Origin: a virus
DNA: 33,961 nucleotides
IMG/VR virus record: IMGVR_UViG_3300037189_018126
Coordinates: 1-33,961 of that record
Reading direction: 5' to 3' (one strand)
In this document: one piece after another, positions 1,454-33,961 of the stretch
How positions within the stretch are numbered: position 1 is the stretch's first letter
How the letters are laid out: every line of letters begins with the position of its first letter
The notes under the pieces: model-generated
Databases searched by the model: none
Told to the model about the DNA's origin: nothing
Seen by the model: the letters and a program-made list of their open reading frames with translations, nothing else
Program-made: the position numbers and the translations under genes

Positions 1454-2735
1454 GGCCTGCCTCCAACTTCTCTGCCTTGCGGCCGGTGAAGGCCTCCCAT
1501 CGGTCAATCGCCACCTGAACATATTGCGGGGAAATCTCCATCAGAAACGAAGATTTGCCGAGCCGTTCATCCGCTATCATCGTGGTTCCCGTTCCCCCAA
1601 ACGGGTCAAAAACGCTCTCGGCCTTGTCGCACAATGTCCCCAGTGCCCATTCTGGCAAGTGTTCCGGCATGGTTGCCGCGTGAACTGCCGCCGCCTTGTT
1701 GTTGCGTTGCGGAGGTCCTTCGTAGACGGTTGAAACGGTCCCATGCCACGAAGAGCATGGGACAACTCGGCTCGCCTTTTCGCCGCCAAGAACTACCAGA
1801 AACTCAAACCGCGACGACATCACTCCGGGCGCCATTTGCGGAGCCGCATGGCCCTTGTCCCATACTGCAACATCACAAATGCGGCGCGCGTGTTCGTGCA
1901 TCCATGCAATCAAGTGGGATTTGTTTCCCGCGAGCATCTGCACATTCACCACGCCGCCATGACGGCACGCATCAAGGGCGCATCGCGTCCATTCGCGCAT
2001 AAGGCGCGGCCACTCTGCACTCTCGTCCTGGTGTTTGTCGTAAGCGTTTCCCCGAGCCGAAGCCGCCTTGTTGCCGCTAAGCGCCGCCGACTTGCCGAGC
2101 GCGTATGGTGGTGAGGTGAAAAAGATATCCGCCAGCGCGCCACCCATGAGACGACCCACGTCCTCGGCTTTCGTGGAGTCCCCGCACAACAACAGGTGGT
2201 CGCCAAGGCGGAACATGTCTCCCATCTTGATGTCCGTGGGCCGCTCTTCGGGCACCTCGTCCGGGTCGGTGTTGCCATTGGTGCCCGACGCCTCGCCCAG
2301 CAGCTTTTCCAGCGCCTCGGCGTCAAAGCCGGTGCCCTCCAACGCCTGCGCGTCGGCCAACTCCTTCACCAGCTCGGCCAGCGGCCCCTCGTCCCACCCG
2401 CCCGCAGCCGTCAACTGGTTGGACGCCAGCAGGTAAGCCTCGGCCTCCTGGTCGCTGCGGCTGGCCCAGCCGCGCAGCACCGGCACCAACCACTCGCCGT
2501 CCTTCTCGGCCACGCCAGCGGGTGGCGTGCCGCCTTTGGCCTTCATCAGTGACAACGCTTTGGCCCGCCCGTGGCCCGCGACGAGGCGCCCGGTGCGCTC
2601 GTCCAGCACGATGGGCTCCACGTAGCCAAAGCGGCCGATGGAGTCCCGCAGGGCGGGTAGGGCGTGCTTCTTGGGGTTGCGCTGCGCGGGCGTCAGCGCG
2701 GACAGCGCCATGGATTCCAGATTGGTTGCCGTCAT
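1443..2735 (-). CDS. ParB-like domain fused to beta-class DNA methyltransferase
   Basis: A 430-residue fusion. Residues about 5-110 look like a ParB/Srx-type domain, with the GHGRAKAL motif at 54-61. The rest is an amino-methyltransferase: catalytic TSPPY (motif IV) at 207-211 comes before the AdoMet-binding FDPFGGTGTT (motif I) at 376-385, the order seen in beta-class enzymes. It probably methylates exocyclic amines (N4-cytosine or N6-adenine) in phage DNA; TSPPY is common among N4-cytosine enzymes, but the target base cannot be told from the sequence. No partner nuclease is present, so protection of phage DNA or signalling is more likely than restriction. The ATG at 2735 has a GAGGG site and overlaps the RusA stop (ATGA). 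Confidence 0.9.
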   Translation of the reverse strand: MTATNLESMALSALTPAQRNPKKHALPALRDSIGRFGYVEPIVLDERTGRLVAGHGRAKALSLMKAKGGTPPAGVAEKDGEWLVPVLRGWASRSDQEAEAYLLASNQLTAAGGWDEGPLAELVKELADAQALEGTGFDAEALEKLLGEASGTNGNTDPDEVPEERPTDIKMGDMFRLGDHLLLCGDSTKAEDVGRLMGGALADIFFTSPPYALGKSAALSGNKAASARGNAYDKHQDESAEWPRLMREWTRCALDACRHGGVVNVQMLAGNKSHLIAWMHEHARRICDVAVWDKGHAAPQMAPGVMSSRFEFLVVLGGEKASRVVPCSSWHGTVSTVYEGPPQRNNKAAAVHAATMPEHLPEWALGTLCDKAESVFDPFGGTGTTMIADERLGKSSFLMEISPQYVQVAIDRWEAFTGRKAEKLEAGHGA

Positions 2736-3082
2736 GTGTCCCTCGGTTGCCACGGCTGCACATCCACCTCCAGCCGGGGGTTGGTTTTGTCGTCCAGGCG
2801 CAGGGCGTGAAGCTCCACCACTTGCGAGTCGTCGTCCCACGCCACGCCGTTGAGGGCGTCGAACGCGGCCTTCAGCGTGTTGTCCAAGTCGCCGCGGCGC
2901 TGCGGCCGGTACGCGGTGACATGCACCACCACCTCGCCCTGCAGGGGCTGGGTGTCATGCTTGCGGGCCTCCCACGCCACCTGCTGGGCGTACTGGCGCC
3001 CCTCCTTGGACTTGATGATGCGGCCGGCAAACACCCGCCAAATGCGGTTGACGCTGGGCGGGTAGGGGAGGGTCAGGCGCAT
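2732..3082 (-). CDS. rusA: RusA-family Holliday junction resolvase
   Basis: A 116-residue endonuclease predicted to cut Holliday junctions or branched DNA made during phage replication, recombination or before packaging. The family hallmark LPYPPSVNRIWR sits at residues 5-16. Acidic residues fall in GDLDN (Asp65, Asp67) and WDDDSQV (Asp83-85), matching the catalytic Asp70, Asp72 and Asp91 of the E. coli enzyme. Length matches the family (about 120). The ATG at 3082 has GGAGGT about 9 bases upstream, lies inside the end of the preceding methyltransferase frame, and the stop overlaps the next gene by ATGA. Confidence 0.93.
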   Translation of the reverse strand: MRLTLPYPPSVNRIWRVFAGRIIKSKEGRQYAQQVAWEARKHDTQPLQGEVVVHVTAYRPQRRGDLDNTLKAAFDALNGVAWDDDSQVVELHALRLDDKTNPRLEVDVQPWQPRDT

Positions 3083-3689
3083 TGGCGTTGTACCTCCAGC
3101 GCGCCCCACTGCTGCGCCATGGCCTCGGCAACCCCCTGGTACGTCTTGCTGCGCTCCTTCCATCTGTCGGCGGCAGGGCCGAGGCGATTCTGCCCACTGT
3201 CCGTCTGGTTTCCCCAGCGCGGCTTACCCTTCACCATGCGCGGCGGCACGCGGAGGGTTGGCACCAGTGGCGGTAGGTTCTTCAGCCAAAGACAGGTGCG
3301 CTTGCTGGCATCGTGTCCGTACTCGTGGGGCTGGATGCACTGGTTCGCTGGCCGGATGGCGGTTCCGATACGCCCCACCGGGTTTTCAAGCGCAATGCGG
3401 TGGATGGGAGCACTCAGCAGCAGGCGCACGAAGGCCAGCGCCTCCTGCGTCTTTGTCTCGCGCCCAGGCGTGCGCTTGTTCCAGTGAAGGCCAGAGCTGC
3501 AAAGGTAGGTGCAGGGAGGGTGGGCAATCATCAGGTCCCAGCCCTCGCCAAGGACGTTTCGCACGTCACCCCGGTAGTGCGGGCCGGTGCTGTCGCTCGG
3601 CAGCAGGTCGCAGGACATTGCGTCATGCCCCCCCGGATGAACGCGTCACGCACGGCGCCGCTGTACTCACACGCCACCAGCACCCTCAT
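3073..3689 (-). CDS. Small C5-cytosine DNA methyltransferase, split by a -1 frameshift site
   Basis: The reading frame from ATG 3689 opens with MRVLVACEYSG, an AdoMet-binding motif I-like start, and runs 21 codons to a run of seven G (plus-strand C at 3628-3634). It then goes out of frame and would stop at 3531 as a 52-residue product. The -1 frame carries the rest: HPPCTYLCSSG with the Pro-Cys of motif IV, and ALENPVGRIG resembling motif VI. At the junction the minus strand reads G-GGG-GGC (3633-3627), a slippery heptamer, and a -1 shift there gives one 205-residue protein of normal size for this phage family. It could therefore be programmed frameshifting, a slippage switch, an assembly error or a dead gene. 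The start overlaps the upstream gene (ATGA) and the end overlaps rusA. Confidence 0.75.
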
Positions 3690-3865
3690 GCCTCCCCCTT
3701 CAGCTTTCGCCACAGCGCCCGACAGCTGCGGTGCAGCTGGCGTGTCCGTCCGCGCTTTCCACTCGTTACGGGCTGCCCACAGGCCAGGCACGGCTGAATG
3801 CGCGGCCCCTCCGGCTTGGGCGGCTTGGGCAGGCGCTGCCCGCAGGCGTGACAGTTGGCGCTCAC
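3686..3865 (-). CDS. Small Cys-rich (zinc-ribbon-like) protein, copy 1
   Basis: A 59-residue protein starting at GTG 3865, which overlaps the upstream stop (GTGA). It shows CHACG near the N-terminus, then CLACG, then RQLHRSC: a C-x2-C, C-x2-C, H-x2-C arrangement likely to hold zinc. The second half closely resembles the 68-residue protein at 4164-4370, suggesting a duplicated pair. Its end overlaps the methyltransferase start (ATGA). Role unknown; a nucleic-acid-binding accessory factor is plausible from the basic tail. Confidence 0.75.
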   Translation of the reverse strand: MSANCHACGQRLPKPPKPEGPRIQPCLACGQPVTSGKRGRTRQLHRSCRALWRKLKGEA

Positions 3866-4167
3866 GGCCTCACCCCCACCAGCGGCGTGGCCCGCACCAC
3901 CCGGCCCAACTGGTCCCCCAGCGTGGGGTTGGCCGGATACCCACGGGCCACCCACGCACAGGCCTCCCGCTGCCCCTGTAGGGCCTTTAGGGCCACATCC
4001 ATGCCGAGGGCCGCGGCGGGGTGCGAAAGTCGCTCCTGGGCCAACTGGAGGGCCTTGGCGGTGGCCCTGACGCGGGCCATGTCCGGCTGATGGACCCCGC
4101 GCAACTCTTCCGGGGTGTAGGGTTGGGCGGCCATGGCCACCCGCCGCACGTCTTCCGCCGTCGTCAT
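3862..4167 (-). CDS. Hypothetical helical protein
   Basis: A 101-residue protein not recognised. The ATG at 4167 has an AGGAGGT site 6 bases upstream and overlaps the stop of the Cys-rich gene before it (ATGA). The sequence looks mostly helical, with an Ala- and Gln-rich middle and no membrane segment or Cys pairs. It lies between the two paralogous zinc-ribbon-like genes, all translated in series. Strong start signal and coupling make it a real gene; no function can be offered. Confidence 0.72.
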   Translation of the reverse strand: MTTAEDVRRVAMAAQPYTPEELRGVHQPDMARVRATAKALQLAQERLSHPAAALGMDVALKALQGQREACAWVARGYPANPTLGDQLGRVVRATPLVGVRP

Positions 4168-4370
4168 GGCCGCACCTCCTTGGCCTGCCGGCGCTGCTTG
4201 GCCAACGTGGCCAGCCGCGCCCGCCTACACTCCGGGTGCAACTGCCGAGGGCGGCCGAGGCCAAGGCCGGCCACCGGCTTGCCGCAAGCCAGGCATGGCT
4301 TCACAGGCGGGGCCTGTAGCGCATGCAGGCGCCGGTGGCAGGTGGGGCAGTAGGGCTTCTGGGGCTTCAT
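4164..4370 (-). CDS. Small Cys-rich (zinc-ribbon-like) protein, copy 2
   Basis: A 68-residue protein from ATG 4370, overlapping the preceding stop (ATGA). It has CPTC, then CLACGKPV, then a GRPRQLHPEC segment and a strongly basic tail. The CLACG to RQLH-x2-C block matches the protein at 3686-3865 almost residue for residue, including the Gly-Arg before RQLH. Probable zinc-binding, perhaps a DNA- or RNA-binding regulator. The paralogy is visible; the function is inference. Confidence 0.75.
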   Translation of the reverse strand: MKPQKPYCPTCHRRLHALQAPPVKPCLACGKPVAGLGLGRPRQLHPECRRARLATLAKQRRQAKEVRP

Positions 4371-8913: not shown

Positions 8914-9008
8914 ACTGATGCGGGGGGGGGGCGGGGTAGCCTTGAGACTGCAGCACGTTGGCTGCGCGACACAGCGCGGCGCGGTCTGTCGCGCGGTGAA
9001 CGTATCGG

Positions 9009-9504: not shown

Positions 9505-10470
9505 ATGAGCGGAGCGATTCAGAGGGCAGCAGAGGCGCAGTCGTTCTTCACCACGGACCAGCTGCAGATGATTCGGACCAGCTTCCTGAGTGGGGCGTCC
9601 GAGCAGGAGGCGGGCGTGCTGCTGGAGTTGGCGCGCCTGCGCCGCCTCAACCCCATCACCCGGCAGATTCACTTCGTGAAGCGCTGGGACGGCCAGAAGC
9701 GCTGCGAGGTGTGGGCCGCCCAGGTGGGTATCGACGGGTTCCGCGCCATTGCGGAGCGCACCGGCCTGTACGACGGCCAGGACGAGGCCGAGTTCGAGTA
9801 CGACGCCAAGGGCGGGCTGAAGCTGGCCCGGGTGCGGGTGTACCGGAAGGACTGGAGCCGCCCGGCGGTGGGCGTGGCGCACTATGCCGAGTACGTGCAA
9901 CTGACGAAGGACGGCAAGCCCACCCACATGTGGGGCTCCAAGGTGCACGTCATGTTGGGCAAATGCGCCGAGGCCATCGCGCTGCGCAAGGCCTTCCCTG
10001 AGGACACCAGCGGCCTGTACTCGCCCGAGGAAATGCCCGAGGCCGAGGCACCGCGCACCGTGGCCCCGCCGCCCCCGGCCGTGGTGGCGCCGGTGCCCGA
10101 GCACTCCAAGCCCAAGCGCGAGCAGGGGCCGAAGGCCAAGGCCGCCCCCAGGGTGGTGGAGGCCGAGGTGGTGCAGCTCAACCCCGCCATCGCCACGGCC
10201 AAGGAGAAGGTGATGGCCGCCCTGGGCTGGAGTCCGGAGCCCCAGCACGAGGAACCGCCCGCGCCCGAGCTGGAGCCGGTGGACTTGGAGGTGGTGGACG
10301 ACCTCTCCCCCGCCGAGAAGGTGCTGGCCCGTATTGCCGAGGCGCAGACGCTGGCGGACCTCGCGCCGGTGGTGAAGTCCATCACCGAGCACGGGCTCAC
10401 CAAGGACGCCGGCATCCGGCAGGCGTACCAGGCGAAGCAGCGCGACCTGCGGCAGGCGGGGGGGCGGTGA
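9505..10470 (+). CDS. bet: Redbeta-type single-strand annealing recombinase (Bet)
   Basis: A 321-residue homologue of lambda Bet, which anneals complementary single strands in phage recombination and replication. Family features run from about residue 15 to 185: SEQEAGVLLELARLRRLNPITRQI, then AAQVGIDGFRAIAERTGLYDG, and CAEAIALRKAFPEDTSGLYSPEEM. The C-terminal third is a Pro/Ala-rich linker and a small helical end, longer than lambda Bet (261). The ATG at 9505 has AGGAGG 6 bases upstream. The stop overlaps the start of the nuclease gene (TGATG), giving the classic annealase-exonuclease pair. Confidence 0.92.
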   Translation: MSGAIQRAAEAQSFFTTDQLQMIRTSFLSGASEQEAGVLLELARLRRLNPITRQIHFVKRWDGQKRCEVWAAQVGIDGFRAIAERTGLYDGQDEAEFEYDAKGGLKLARVRVYRKDWSRPAVGVAHYAEYVQLTKDGKPTHMWGSKVHVMLGKCAEAIALRKAFPEDTSGLYSPEEMPEAEAPRTVAPPPPAVVAPVPEHSKPKREQGPKAKAAPRVVEAEVVQLNPAIATAKEKVMAALGWSPEPQHEEPPAPELEPVDLEVVDDLSPAEKVLARIAEAQTLADLAPVVKSITEHGLTKDAGIRQAYQAKQRDLRQAGGR

Positions 10471-12002: not shown

Positions 12003-13961
12003 CTAGTTGAAGCCCTTGCGGACAACCAAGTAACTGCCCACCTTGGCGGTCATGGTATACAGCGCGTTAGAGCTACGCAGGCGGATTGAGAACGCTCCTG
12101 AGCTGACAGCGCCCGTTAGCAGAACACCGCGAATGGTGGCCACATAGGAGGTTGTTGCCGCTGTAGTGGTGGCGAGCGCCGCCATAGCGTCTGCCGCAGT
12201 GTCATGGCGCGTCGTCATAGTACCGCCCGTGGCGTTAGCGAACGTCTGGTAATCCACCGTGTAATCCAGCACGCTGATAGTGCCGGTAGAACTTACGCTG
12301 AAGCCGGGACCGCCCGCCGTATTGCTGGACTGCCAGATGATACGGGCTTCAAAAATCCAAGGCTGAAGCAATCCAACCGAATGCGTAAGGCCAGTGATAT
12401 CGACAAAGCCAGTGCTTGTAGTCGTAAAATCAGAGGTTAAGCGGTAGATGGTGCCCGCATTGGTGTTCATTCCGGTAAGGTCTGGGAAAACAAGCGCATT
12501 CCCACTGGTTGGCGTGCTAAGCGTAAAGTTTCCCTGATTTGAGATTTTTGCACGCTCAGTTAGCGTAGTTGTCCCATCTGCCGCCGTTCTGAATGAAAGA
12601 GAACCTGGCATGTCCGAGGCTCCGGGCACGGCATCTACAATGCCATAAATGGCGGCATTGTCTCTGTACGCGGAGCCGTCATACCCGCTAAAAATCACGC
12701 CGCCTTGAAAGTCTCCGTTAGAGAGGATGGTCGGCGCATCCACTGTTCCGCGTGCGCGCTGGAGCTGCACATACGAGCCAGCCGAGGTGCCAGCGGAGCG
12801 GCCGGTGTAGTTGGCAAACCCGTCTTTGGCCGCTGAGATAGTTGAAAGCGGGGAGCTGCCAACGCCAAAGCCAGTGGCGTTAAACAAGCTGTGTCTTGTG
12901 GAACCCCCCCAAACGGCAAAGCCATTGGCATTGCTTAGGTAATCAACATAGAACGCATTCCGCTTATCGGTTGCTCCGTGAGTGCGACCGCCGTATCCAA
13001 TGGCGGCTTGTCTGGCGTTGTCGCCATCATCAAAGAAATCAACGCCGCCATATCCGGTAACAGAACCACTAAGCGTTTTGATGCTACCGCCGCCGTTTTC
13101 CGTGATGGCATTGCGAGCAACTACCGCATATGTGGTTGTTGCGTAGCCGTTGACTGAGCCAGTGTCAGTGGCCGCCGCTCCGACGTGCAACCGGTTATTT
13201 GTGGCATCGTAGGTGTAAGTTGATTCGCCAGACAGCCCGTAGGTGCTGGTCCAATAGGTTGCTTGGCCAGCCGTTCCGCTGCCGTTAACGCCCTGGCTGC
13301 AGCTGTAAGCGGTGCCGTTGCTGCTCAAAAACTGCGCCGTTCCACACGTCAAGGCTCCAGTGCCGGTGCCGCCATTTGGCTGCGGCAATGTGCCAGCTAC
13401 GTCGCTTCCCAACTGCACGGCGCTGCAGCTCGGCGCGGCGTTGTCATTGACGCCACGCACAAACTGGTTTGTGCAGACACCAACACCGCTGTAGTTGCTC
13501 GCCAGCTCTGCGTCCGAGACACACCCGCTACAGTTGAGGTCTGAAGCGGTAATGGTGGACGTGCATTGCAGGGTGGAGGTGCTGGCCGTAGTCAGGGCCT
13601 GCCCGCTGGTGCAAGTCAGGCCATGTTGCCAATCCAACTGCGCTTCACCGGCCGTGGCAAAGTCCGTAACGGTATAGTTGCCGTTAGAAAGCACCCGCTC
13701 ATTGGACAGGCCGGGGTCAGCGTACCAAGTTACAAAACCAGCGTCCGAGAGCGCGCCGCCGCCGCCCGCCACATTGACGCTAACAGTTCCGTTACCGCCG
13801 TCGACGCTGCAGGCAAGGCCTGGACTAAGACAGTTAAGGTTCCACACAGGCCCCTGGTCCACGCCGTTCTGCAACAGGCCCCAGGGGTAATCACTGTACA
13901 TGGGCGACTGCGCCACAGCCAAAGCCGCGACGAGCGCCAGCGCAACGGCGGCTACTCGCAT
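12003..13961 (-). CDS. Large tail fibre / adhesin-like protein with N-terminal signal peptide
   Basis: A 652-residue protein. It opens with MRVAAVALALVAALAVAQS, which reads as a Sec signal peptide with a cut near AVAQS. The rest is Gly, Ser, Thr and Asn rich beta-type sequence: LPQPNGGTGTGALTCGTAQFL matches the NGGTG motif common in phage fibres, followed by YDATNNRLHVG and a long middle section. Several Cys pairs in the first 250 residues suggest disulphides, fitting export. The ATG at 13961 has AGAAGG upstream. The DNA is AT-richer than the rest of the phage. Probably a receptor-binding fibre or secreted adhesin; the signal peptide is unusual for a virion protein. Confidence 0.75.
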   Translation of the reverse strand: MRVAAVALALVAALAVAQSPMYSDYPWGLLQNGVDQGPVWNLNCLSPGLACSVDGGNGTVSVNVAGGGGALSDAGFVTWYADPGLSNERVLSNGNYTVTDFATAGEAQLDWQHGLTCTSGQALTTASTSTLQCTSTITASDLNCSGCVSDAELASNYSGVGVCTNQFVRGVNDNAAPSCSAVQLGSDVAGTLPQPNGGTGTGALTCGTAQFLSSNGTAYSCSQGVNGSGTAGQATYWTSTYGLSGESTYTYDATNNRLHVGAAATDTGSVNGYATTTYAVVARNAITENGGGSIKTLSGSVTGYGGVDFFDDGDNARQAAIGYGGRTHGATDKRNAFYVDYLSNANGFAVWGGSTRHSLFNATGFGVGSSPLSTISAAKDGFANYTGRSAGTSAGSYVQLQRARGTVDAPTILSNGDFQGGVIFSGYDGSAYRDNAAIYGIVDAVPGASDMPGSLSFRTAADGTTTLTERAKISNQGNFTLSTPTSGNALVFPDLTGMNTNAGTIYRLTSDFTTTSTGFVDITGLTHSVGLLQPWIFEARIIWQSSNTAGGPGFSVSSTGTISVLDYTVDYQTFANATGGTMTTRHDTAADAMAALATTTAATTSYVATIRGVLLTGAVSSGAFSIRLRSSNALYTMTAKVGSYLVVRKGFN

Positions 13962-13963
13962 GG

Positions 13964-14320
13964 CTAGACCTTCTTGCGGATGCCAGGGGAGGCAATGCCG
14001 AAGACAGCCAGCACAGCCACCACCGCGTGGCCCACCGAGGCCACCCACGGGGGCAGCACGCCGGACTCCGAGGCCGCAATGGCCGCCGCAGCCACCACGC
14101 CAAGCGCGGCGAGGAGCTGCACGTGTGGCTGGGCGAGGATGGCGCCAGCGGCGGGCTGGGCAACAGGTGCGGCTTCAGTGTTGGGCGTGTCAGACATGGC
14201 CTGTCTCTCTTCCGGGGTGAGGTGTAGCGGTTTGAGGTTGGCGTCCAGCCCACGCAGGCGAAGCATGCCGATGCGCTCCGCTTCGCCCAGGTTGGGCAGG
14301 GGCTTACGCGGGAGCGTCAT
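13964..14320 (-). CDS. Holin-like membrane protein
   Basis: Up to 118 residues from ATG 14320. A second start, ATG 14197, gives 77 residues. Two hydrophobic segments follow: HVQLLAALGVVAAAAIAASE and VASVGHAVVAVLAVFGIAS, joined by a short turn, then a basic end (GIRKKV). Two membrane helices and a charged tail fit a class II-type holin, which forms holes that let the endolysin reach the cell wall. It follows the endolysin gene directly, with a small overlap if the longer start is used. Confidence 0.7.
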   Translation of the reverse strand: MTLPRKPLPNLGEAERIGMLRLRGLDANLKPLHLTPEERQAMSDTPNTEAAPVAQPAAGAILAQPHVQLLAALGVVAAAAIAASESGVLPPWVASVGHAVVAVLAVFGIASPGIRKKV

Positions 14321-33369: not shown

Positions 33370-33961
33370 TCAGCGCCTACGCAGCCCGCCCAGCGCCTTC
33401 AGCGTGTCCATCGGGTCCGGGGCCTCGGGCAGCCACAGGTTATCGGTGTTGCCCCCGGCCATGGCGCGCCGCTGCTCCAACTCGGGCCGGGGGTCACGGT
33501 GCCGGTGGACGTTGCGGTGCAGGTACACCAGGGCGTCCAGCAGGTCCCCGTGGTCCTTGTCGGTGCGCTGCCACTCGGTGCGCCCCTTGTTCCAGGTGGT
33601 GCTGGCCAACTGCTCGATGAGGCGCCGGCAGCGGGGGTGCACCCGGATGCGCCGCTGCCGCACCGCCTCGTCCAAGTCACTGACGGCAAGCGCCTTGTCG
33701 TCCTTGCGGGTGGGGAGGACGGCCAAGCCGTGCTGCCCGTGCAAGTCCGCCAGCGTCAGCGGGTCGTTGTCCCCCACCCGCAGGTAGGGCTGGCGCGGCA
33801 CGTCGTTGGCCGTGCGGGCCGCAGACAACATCCACGCGGGCGTCTCCGAGGCCTTGGCCCCCAACAGCGTGCCCGCCCACCTGTCCACGCCCCACAGCTG
33901 CGCCTCCCGCCGCTTGATGGCCTCGGCCAGTTGCGCCGTGGTGGCGCCGCGCAACTCCAGC
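33370..33961 (-). CDS. terL: Terminase large subunit, C-terminal part (continues from base 1)
   Basis: The end of the large terminase. It reads in phase with the piece at 1-1007 once the 87-base overlap is joined. It holds the rest of the nuclease domain: GDNDPLTLADL and the later HGDLLDALVYL, whose Asp residues (about 446 and 449 in the joined protein) match the last acidic site of the terminase nuclease. The stop is at 33370, 37 bases before the portal start. Confidence 0.92.
   Translation of the reverse strand, partial: LELRGATTAQLAEAIKRREAQLWGVDRWAGTLLGAKASETPAWMLSAARTANDVPRQPYLRVGDNDPLTLADLHGQHGLAVLPTRKDDKALAVSDLDEAVRQRRIRVHPRCRRLIEQLASTTWNKGRTEWQRTDKDHGDLLDALVYLHRNVHRHRDPRPELEQRRAMAGGNTDNLWLPEAPDPMDTLKALGGLRRR
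33875..33961. repeat. Terminal direct repeat, right copy (circular contig overlap)
   Basis: Identical to bases 1-87. The overlap length matches a de Bruijn assembly k-mer rather than a typical phage end, so the true circle is about 33,874 bp and the physical ends of the packaged DNA are unknown. Confidence 0.93.

Follow-up and report, generated by a model that had tools for sequence, protein, structure and literature searches.

A methyltransferase gene broken at a recurrent poly-G tract points to a phase-variable, phage-encoded C5-type DNA methyltransferase

Introduction

Several phasevarion methyltransferases owe their switching to a simple repeat within the reading frame, and programmed −1 ribosomal frameshifting is known, for example, from phage tail assembly chaperones. 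Phase-variable DNA methyltransferases and phasevarions have been described in bacteria, including the type III ModM and ModH and the type IIG Cj0031 (PMC6902483, PMC5700931, PMC4889913). Poly-G phase variation affects the receptor-binding proteins of Campylobacter phages (Sorensen et al. 2021 Cell Rep 35:109214, as cited in PMC10877375 and PMC11868660), and a 2025 review states that how phase variation is distributed among phage lineages has yet to be mapped (PMC11868660). Phage-encoded methyltransferases such as PamA are already known (PMC13076061).

The window, i.e., the whole stretch of DNA that was analysed, is an IMG/VR virus record of 33,961 bases with a GC content of 67%. It carries a methyltransferase gene that is one base out of frame at a poly-G tract. 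Based on the lengths of the corresponding tracts in other viral contigs, we propose, with a probability of roughly 0.78, that the phage encodes a solitary C5 cytosine DNA methyltransferase whose expression is phase-variable and would switch by slipped-strand mispairing, with the window in the OFF state.

The split methyltransferase gene and its neighborhood

The methyltransferase gene is read on the minus strand from an ATG at 3689, a start that is credible because it overlaps the stop codon of the upstream ORF, and the overlap likely couples the translation of the two (Table 1). Codons 19–21 are CGG GGG GGC, with a run of exactly seven G and no more. Frame 0 ends at a stop at 3531–3533 after 52 residues, and one base back from the run the sequence continues into HDAMSCDLL and is open up to the stop at 3073–3075. 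The initial annotation had described this arrangement exactly, and its statement that the joined protein fits the family was borne out, as the 205-residue two-frame join matched PHROG 757 'DNA methyltransferase' over residues 1–201 (E = 1.3e-60). Pfam and NCBIfam profile searches of the window methyltransferase gave no matches. Both HPPC (PPC being motif IV) and ENP (motif VI), which are invariant or nearly so in the relatives, occur in the window protein. Judging from these motifs and from the modeled fold of a family member, the gene product is predicted to be a C5 cytosine methyltransferase with the corresponding activity. After the break, 181 codons are open, with an identity to a relative of up to 77%. 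On its own, the part encoded in the −1 frame is expected to be inactive because it would lack the N-terminal strand and helix of motif I, which were assigned from the model of relative L092 and by inference.

Table 1. Features of the methyltransferase locus in the window
Feature	Position	Strand	Basis or remark
Solitary C5-type DNA methyltransferase gene (predicted), phage-encoded, one base out of frame at a poly-G tract	3073..3689	−	PHROG 757 and fold of a family member
Poly-G tract G7 (C7 on the plus strand), site 1, out-of-frame length, turn between helix A and strand 2	3628..3634	−	
Truncated product of frame 0 (putative OFF product), 52 residues	3531..3689	−	
Rest of the enzyme, −1 frame, 181 aa when started at an internal ATG	3073..3618	−	
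Upstream ORF, function unknown	3686..4264	−	Stop overlaps the methyltransferase start (ATGA)
Downstream RusA-like Holliday junction resolvase	2732..3082	−	PHROG 34, E = 1.4e-31; overlaps the methyltransferase 3′ end

Phage-like genes of the window include those for portal, head, internal virion protein, tail fibre, replication initiator and RusA. An 87-base direct terminal repeat (1–87 and 33875–33961) suggests a complete genome, either circular or terminally redundant. A PHROG search with the upstream ORF gave no matches, and no restriction gene was recognised among the searched neighbors of the methyltransferase gene. The longest run in the window is G10 on the plus strand (C10 on the minus strand) at 8922–8931. 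It precedes a small helix-turn-helix (excisionase-like) gene, with ~ 18 nt between run and ATG, and may represent another variable tract, in this case in a 5′ region. Further seven-base G/C runs are found at 10458–10464 and at 12904–12910, the latter inside a tail-fibre-like ORF (12003–14048).

Poly-G tracts at site 1 in other viral contigs

A scan for at least six G ahead of the HDAxSCD codons (site 1) identified 46 other viral contigs with G6–G10 at the same codons as in the window. The in-frame tracts mostly contain 8 G (FIRGG-HD) or 9 G (FIGGG-HD); the off-frame tracts contain 7, 8, 9 or 10 G and are shifted by one in both directions. When near-copies were collapsed and the alleles counted by hand, 12 of 37 site-1 alleles, including the window, were off frame (OFF), compared with none of 64 for runs of 3–5 G (Fisher p = 1.6e-6). 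One contig, L113, starts at the contig end and was left unscored. A file-order sample contained 43, 12, 9, 1, 2, 6, 5 and 2 runs of 3, 4, 5, 6, 7, 8, 9 and 10 G, respectively, a bimodal distribution with a minimum at 6–7. Among 51 contigs with Gly-Gly before HD, 46 encode it by six or more consecutive G; therefore it is the tract that recurs rather than the amino acids. The occurrence of ON and OFF lengths at the same codons in relatives strongly supports the phase-variable G-tract length that the initial annotation had listed among its alternatives.

Judged against the frameshift counts of homologues with and without a tract (see below), the break of the window gene at G7 is more than chance. 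Seven G is the short end for a hypermutable tract, and L091 has G7 in frame, i.e., a run without a break. Beyond the break, the gene remains open in the window, as it does in almost every other OFF copy; one exception is L107. This contig has an off-frame tract of 9 G at site 1, followed ~ 60 nt downstream by another frame change at a G7 run in the HYRGGDV region.

Site 2, further tract sites and the structural model

A second poly-G site (site 2) immediately precedes the WD-[LM] strand leading into motif IV. Here, G9 is in frame in 24 contigs, G8 is off frame in 4, and G10 is off frame in L284 and L346. Gly-Gly with mixed codons is found at this site in 49 further contigs (several of them near-copies), all in frame except L346, which is broken at its own G10. 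In L344, a sibling of the G9-tract contigs L298 and L306, synonymous codons (GGT GGG GGA) break up the tract, which resembles a locked-ON form.

Runs were also observed elsewhere in the gene. The L253 homologue is broken near 676 at a G9 run after HFAKKK, which constitutes a third site, and L025 contains an in-frame C9 at a fourth place. Near the C-terminus, L133 has a G9 run and L046, L156 and L233 have G7, where a change of length would alter the tail only. Overall, 6 long G/C runs were counted in 77 kb of methyltransferase gene vs. 10 in 541 kb of flanks, a modest excess (p = 0.01).

For the ON relative L092, an AlphaFold model (pLDDT 92, 34 sequences) places site 1 in a turn at residues 20–22, between helix 11–19 and strand 23–28, and site 2 in a turn at residues 48–50, just before strand 53–56. 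Glycine-tolerant turns would plausibly be suitable places for tracts. The best solved matches of the model are C5 DNA methyltransferases (DNMT3, M.HhaI, M.HaeIII and a Cp-933R prophage enzyme), with a best E of 5e-5 and a TM of ~ 0.5; a search of solved structures by the sequence of the methyltransferase found none. The OFF products lack most of the methyltransferase fold.

Tract length in near-identical phages and the possibility of assembly error

Comparison of closely related contigs located the difference in the tract itself. At site 2, L287 (G9, ON) and L300 (G8, OFF) differ over 5149 nt by a single G in the tract, and a single tract G is likewise the sole difference between L287 and L293 over 3633 nt. 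Together, L283, L287, L293 and L300 comprise ON and OFF forms of one phage. At site 1, L092 (8 G, ON) and L100 (9 G, OFF) share 95.5% identity over 3346 nt; their alignment contains one gap, and the length difference sits at the tract. Tract length differs in 19 of 39 homologous pairs (85–99% identity) vs. 5 of 46 for other long runs, which are nearly all A/T runs of length 7, other G/C runs being too few for a strict error control.

Homopolymers are prone to error, and a homopolymer assembly or sequencing error would mean that in the actual phage the tract keeps the frame and the gene is intact. The window is moreover a single contig without a close relative, and some contigs (L085, L104 and L214) carry long poly-G/poly-C junk at their ends, which is probably a sequencing artefact. 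However, tract length agrees in 25 of 29 contig pairs at ≥ 98% identity, some of which may share related samples, and three contigs have the same OFF length; because of this agreement, the tract length of a contig is mostly not assembly noise. About one-third of the distinct site-1 alleles are off frame, which is above such an error rate. We therefore regard an error as an unlikely explanation of the broken gene, with the phase-variable tract remaining the preferred one.

Relatives, phylogeny and the possibility of gene decay

Searches for close relatives of the window, which may omit records very near to it, returned only the distant homologue L082 with a gapped pattern, none with the window's replication protein, and no near-DNA matches of positions 1–25000 in phage records. 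Because no close relative was found, the window's own ON form was not seen. Site-1 tracts are few in cellular genomes (L134 and L154, both ON, the latter from a prophage of Pseudoxanthomonas dokdonensis), and a scan of ~ 790 cellular genomes of two orders yielded one tract only, which was already among those found. Homologues of the methyltransferase are also listed from plasmids.

The tracts are scattered on the tree. In a FastTree phylogeny of 151 columns with many open forks, parsimony requires 15 changes for site 1 and 14 for site 2, and well-supported branches alone account for no fewer than 7 per site. On this tree, the tracts have arisen repeatedly.

Accessory genes of phages decay, and the window gene carries a lone tract within a clade without tracts, with its nearest kin on the tree being tract-free. 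It is thus conceivable that the gene is a decaying pseudogene, in which a random frameshift in a dispensable gene happened by chance to fall in a short G run. Against this, the codons that follow the break are open, with up to 77% identity to a relative, and the break coincides precisely with a site whose length varies in many other phages. Of the 82 homologues with a tract at site 1 or 2, 15 are frameshifted, vs. only 2 of the 229 that have no such tract (Fisher p = 6e-8; near-copies not collapsed), and one of these two, L253, breaks at its own G9. Decay is accordingly a very improbable account of the locus. The initial annotation had left both sequencing error and decay as alternatives, and both are weakened, since near-identical contigs agree on tract length and the broken gene stays open.

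The possibility of programmed frameshifting

The main claim of the initial annotation, a slippery heptamer repaired by −1 shifting, was not upheld. The heptamer G_GGG_GGC is present in the window in the register of X_XXY_YYZ, so that programmed −1 ribosomal frameshifting could yield the full enzyme from the seven-G gene, and ribosomal or transcriptional slippage on the G run may give some full-length product. In the 80 closest viral relatives (57–74% identity), the corresponding segment reads F-x-x-x-G-H-D within a single frame, and a G run of more than five was absent from the 72 of these 80 that were parsed by the motif search. The 83 nt of RNA downstream, folded without pseudoknots, showed no more structure than shuffled sequences did (z-score −0.51). 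The breaks in the homologues need −1 and +1 shifts in similar numbers, and the common tract lengths (8 or 9 G) need no shift. With the heptamer not conserved, no unusual RNA and homologues broken in both directions, programmed FRAMESHIFTING was rejected for the window methyltransferase as highly improbable. Since the length of the G run differs by one between close relatives, an ON/OFF switch is the reading that we prefer.

Discussion

Based on these comparisons, we suggest a switch of the following kind. An in-frame G run at site 1 would encode the glycine turn that joins helix A to strand 2, and slipped-strand mispairing during replication would add or remove a single G in the tract. Tract lengths that keep the frame would lead to the full-length enzyme (ON), and the remaining lengths, including that of the window, to a short truncated peptide (OFF). 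Switching would be frequent and reversible, and mixed populations of methylated and unmethylated phages may be beneficial, for instance as a hedge between restriction enzymes that are blocked by methylation and type IV enzymes. The mixture of states could act in this way because methylation shields DNA from many restriction enzymes and exposes it to methylation-dependent ones. That many phage lineages have repeatedly evolved hypermutable poly-G switches, with methylated and unmethylated virions as a bet-hedge or with the tract as a switch of phage or host expression, is a tentative proposal to which we give somewhat less than even odds.

If true, poly-G switching that recurs at several sites of a phage DNA methyltransferase would bring phase-variable methylation to viruses; the methylation of virions would be heterogeneous, offering a testable model of phage hedging against restriction. 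Split methyltransferase genes in phage annotations may then be OFF alleles, rather than pseudogenes or errors. No report of a phase-variable phage methyltransferase was found in the literature searched, which held few subscription journals and no preprints.

The locus shares features with several known systems and differs from each of them. With programmed −1 frameshifting it has in common a slippery heptamer in the right register, and it is set apart by the absence of conservation, the ordinary downstream RNA and the breaks in both directions. The solitary phage methyltransferases of PHROG 757 (e.g., those of Bcep1-12, cyanophage gp12 and the Pf-phage DNA cytosine methyltransferase) belong to the same family by sequence; six isolate-phage enzymes of this family, reached through two tract-centred queries (Piku, Shambre1, PfAC20, 54-4, Tillums and Swim), have no long G tract, unlike the window and the tract-bearing contigs. 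Bacterial phasevarions likewise involve switchable expression of a DNA methyltransferase; however, these enzymes are bacterial, mostly adenine-specific and of the restriction-modification type, whereas the gene described here encodes a short C5-type enzyme of phages. The receptor-binding proteins of Campylobacter phages resemble the methyltransferase in having poly-G in a phage gene with tract length as the switch. In those phages, switching of a receptor-binding protein has been demonstrated, whereas here the proposed switch would act on a DNA methyltransferase, at two or more sites and in many unrelated phages, and its operation is deduced from sequences.
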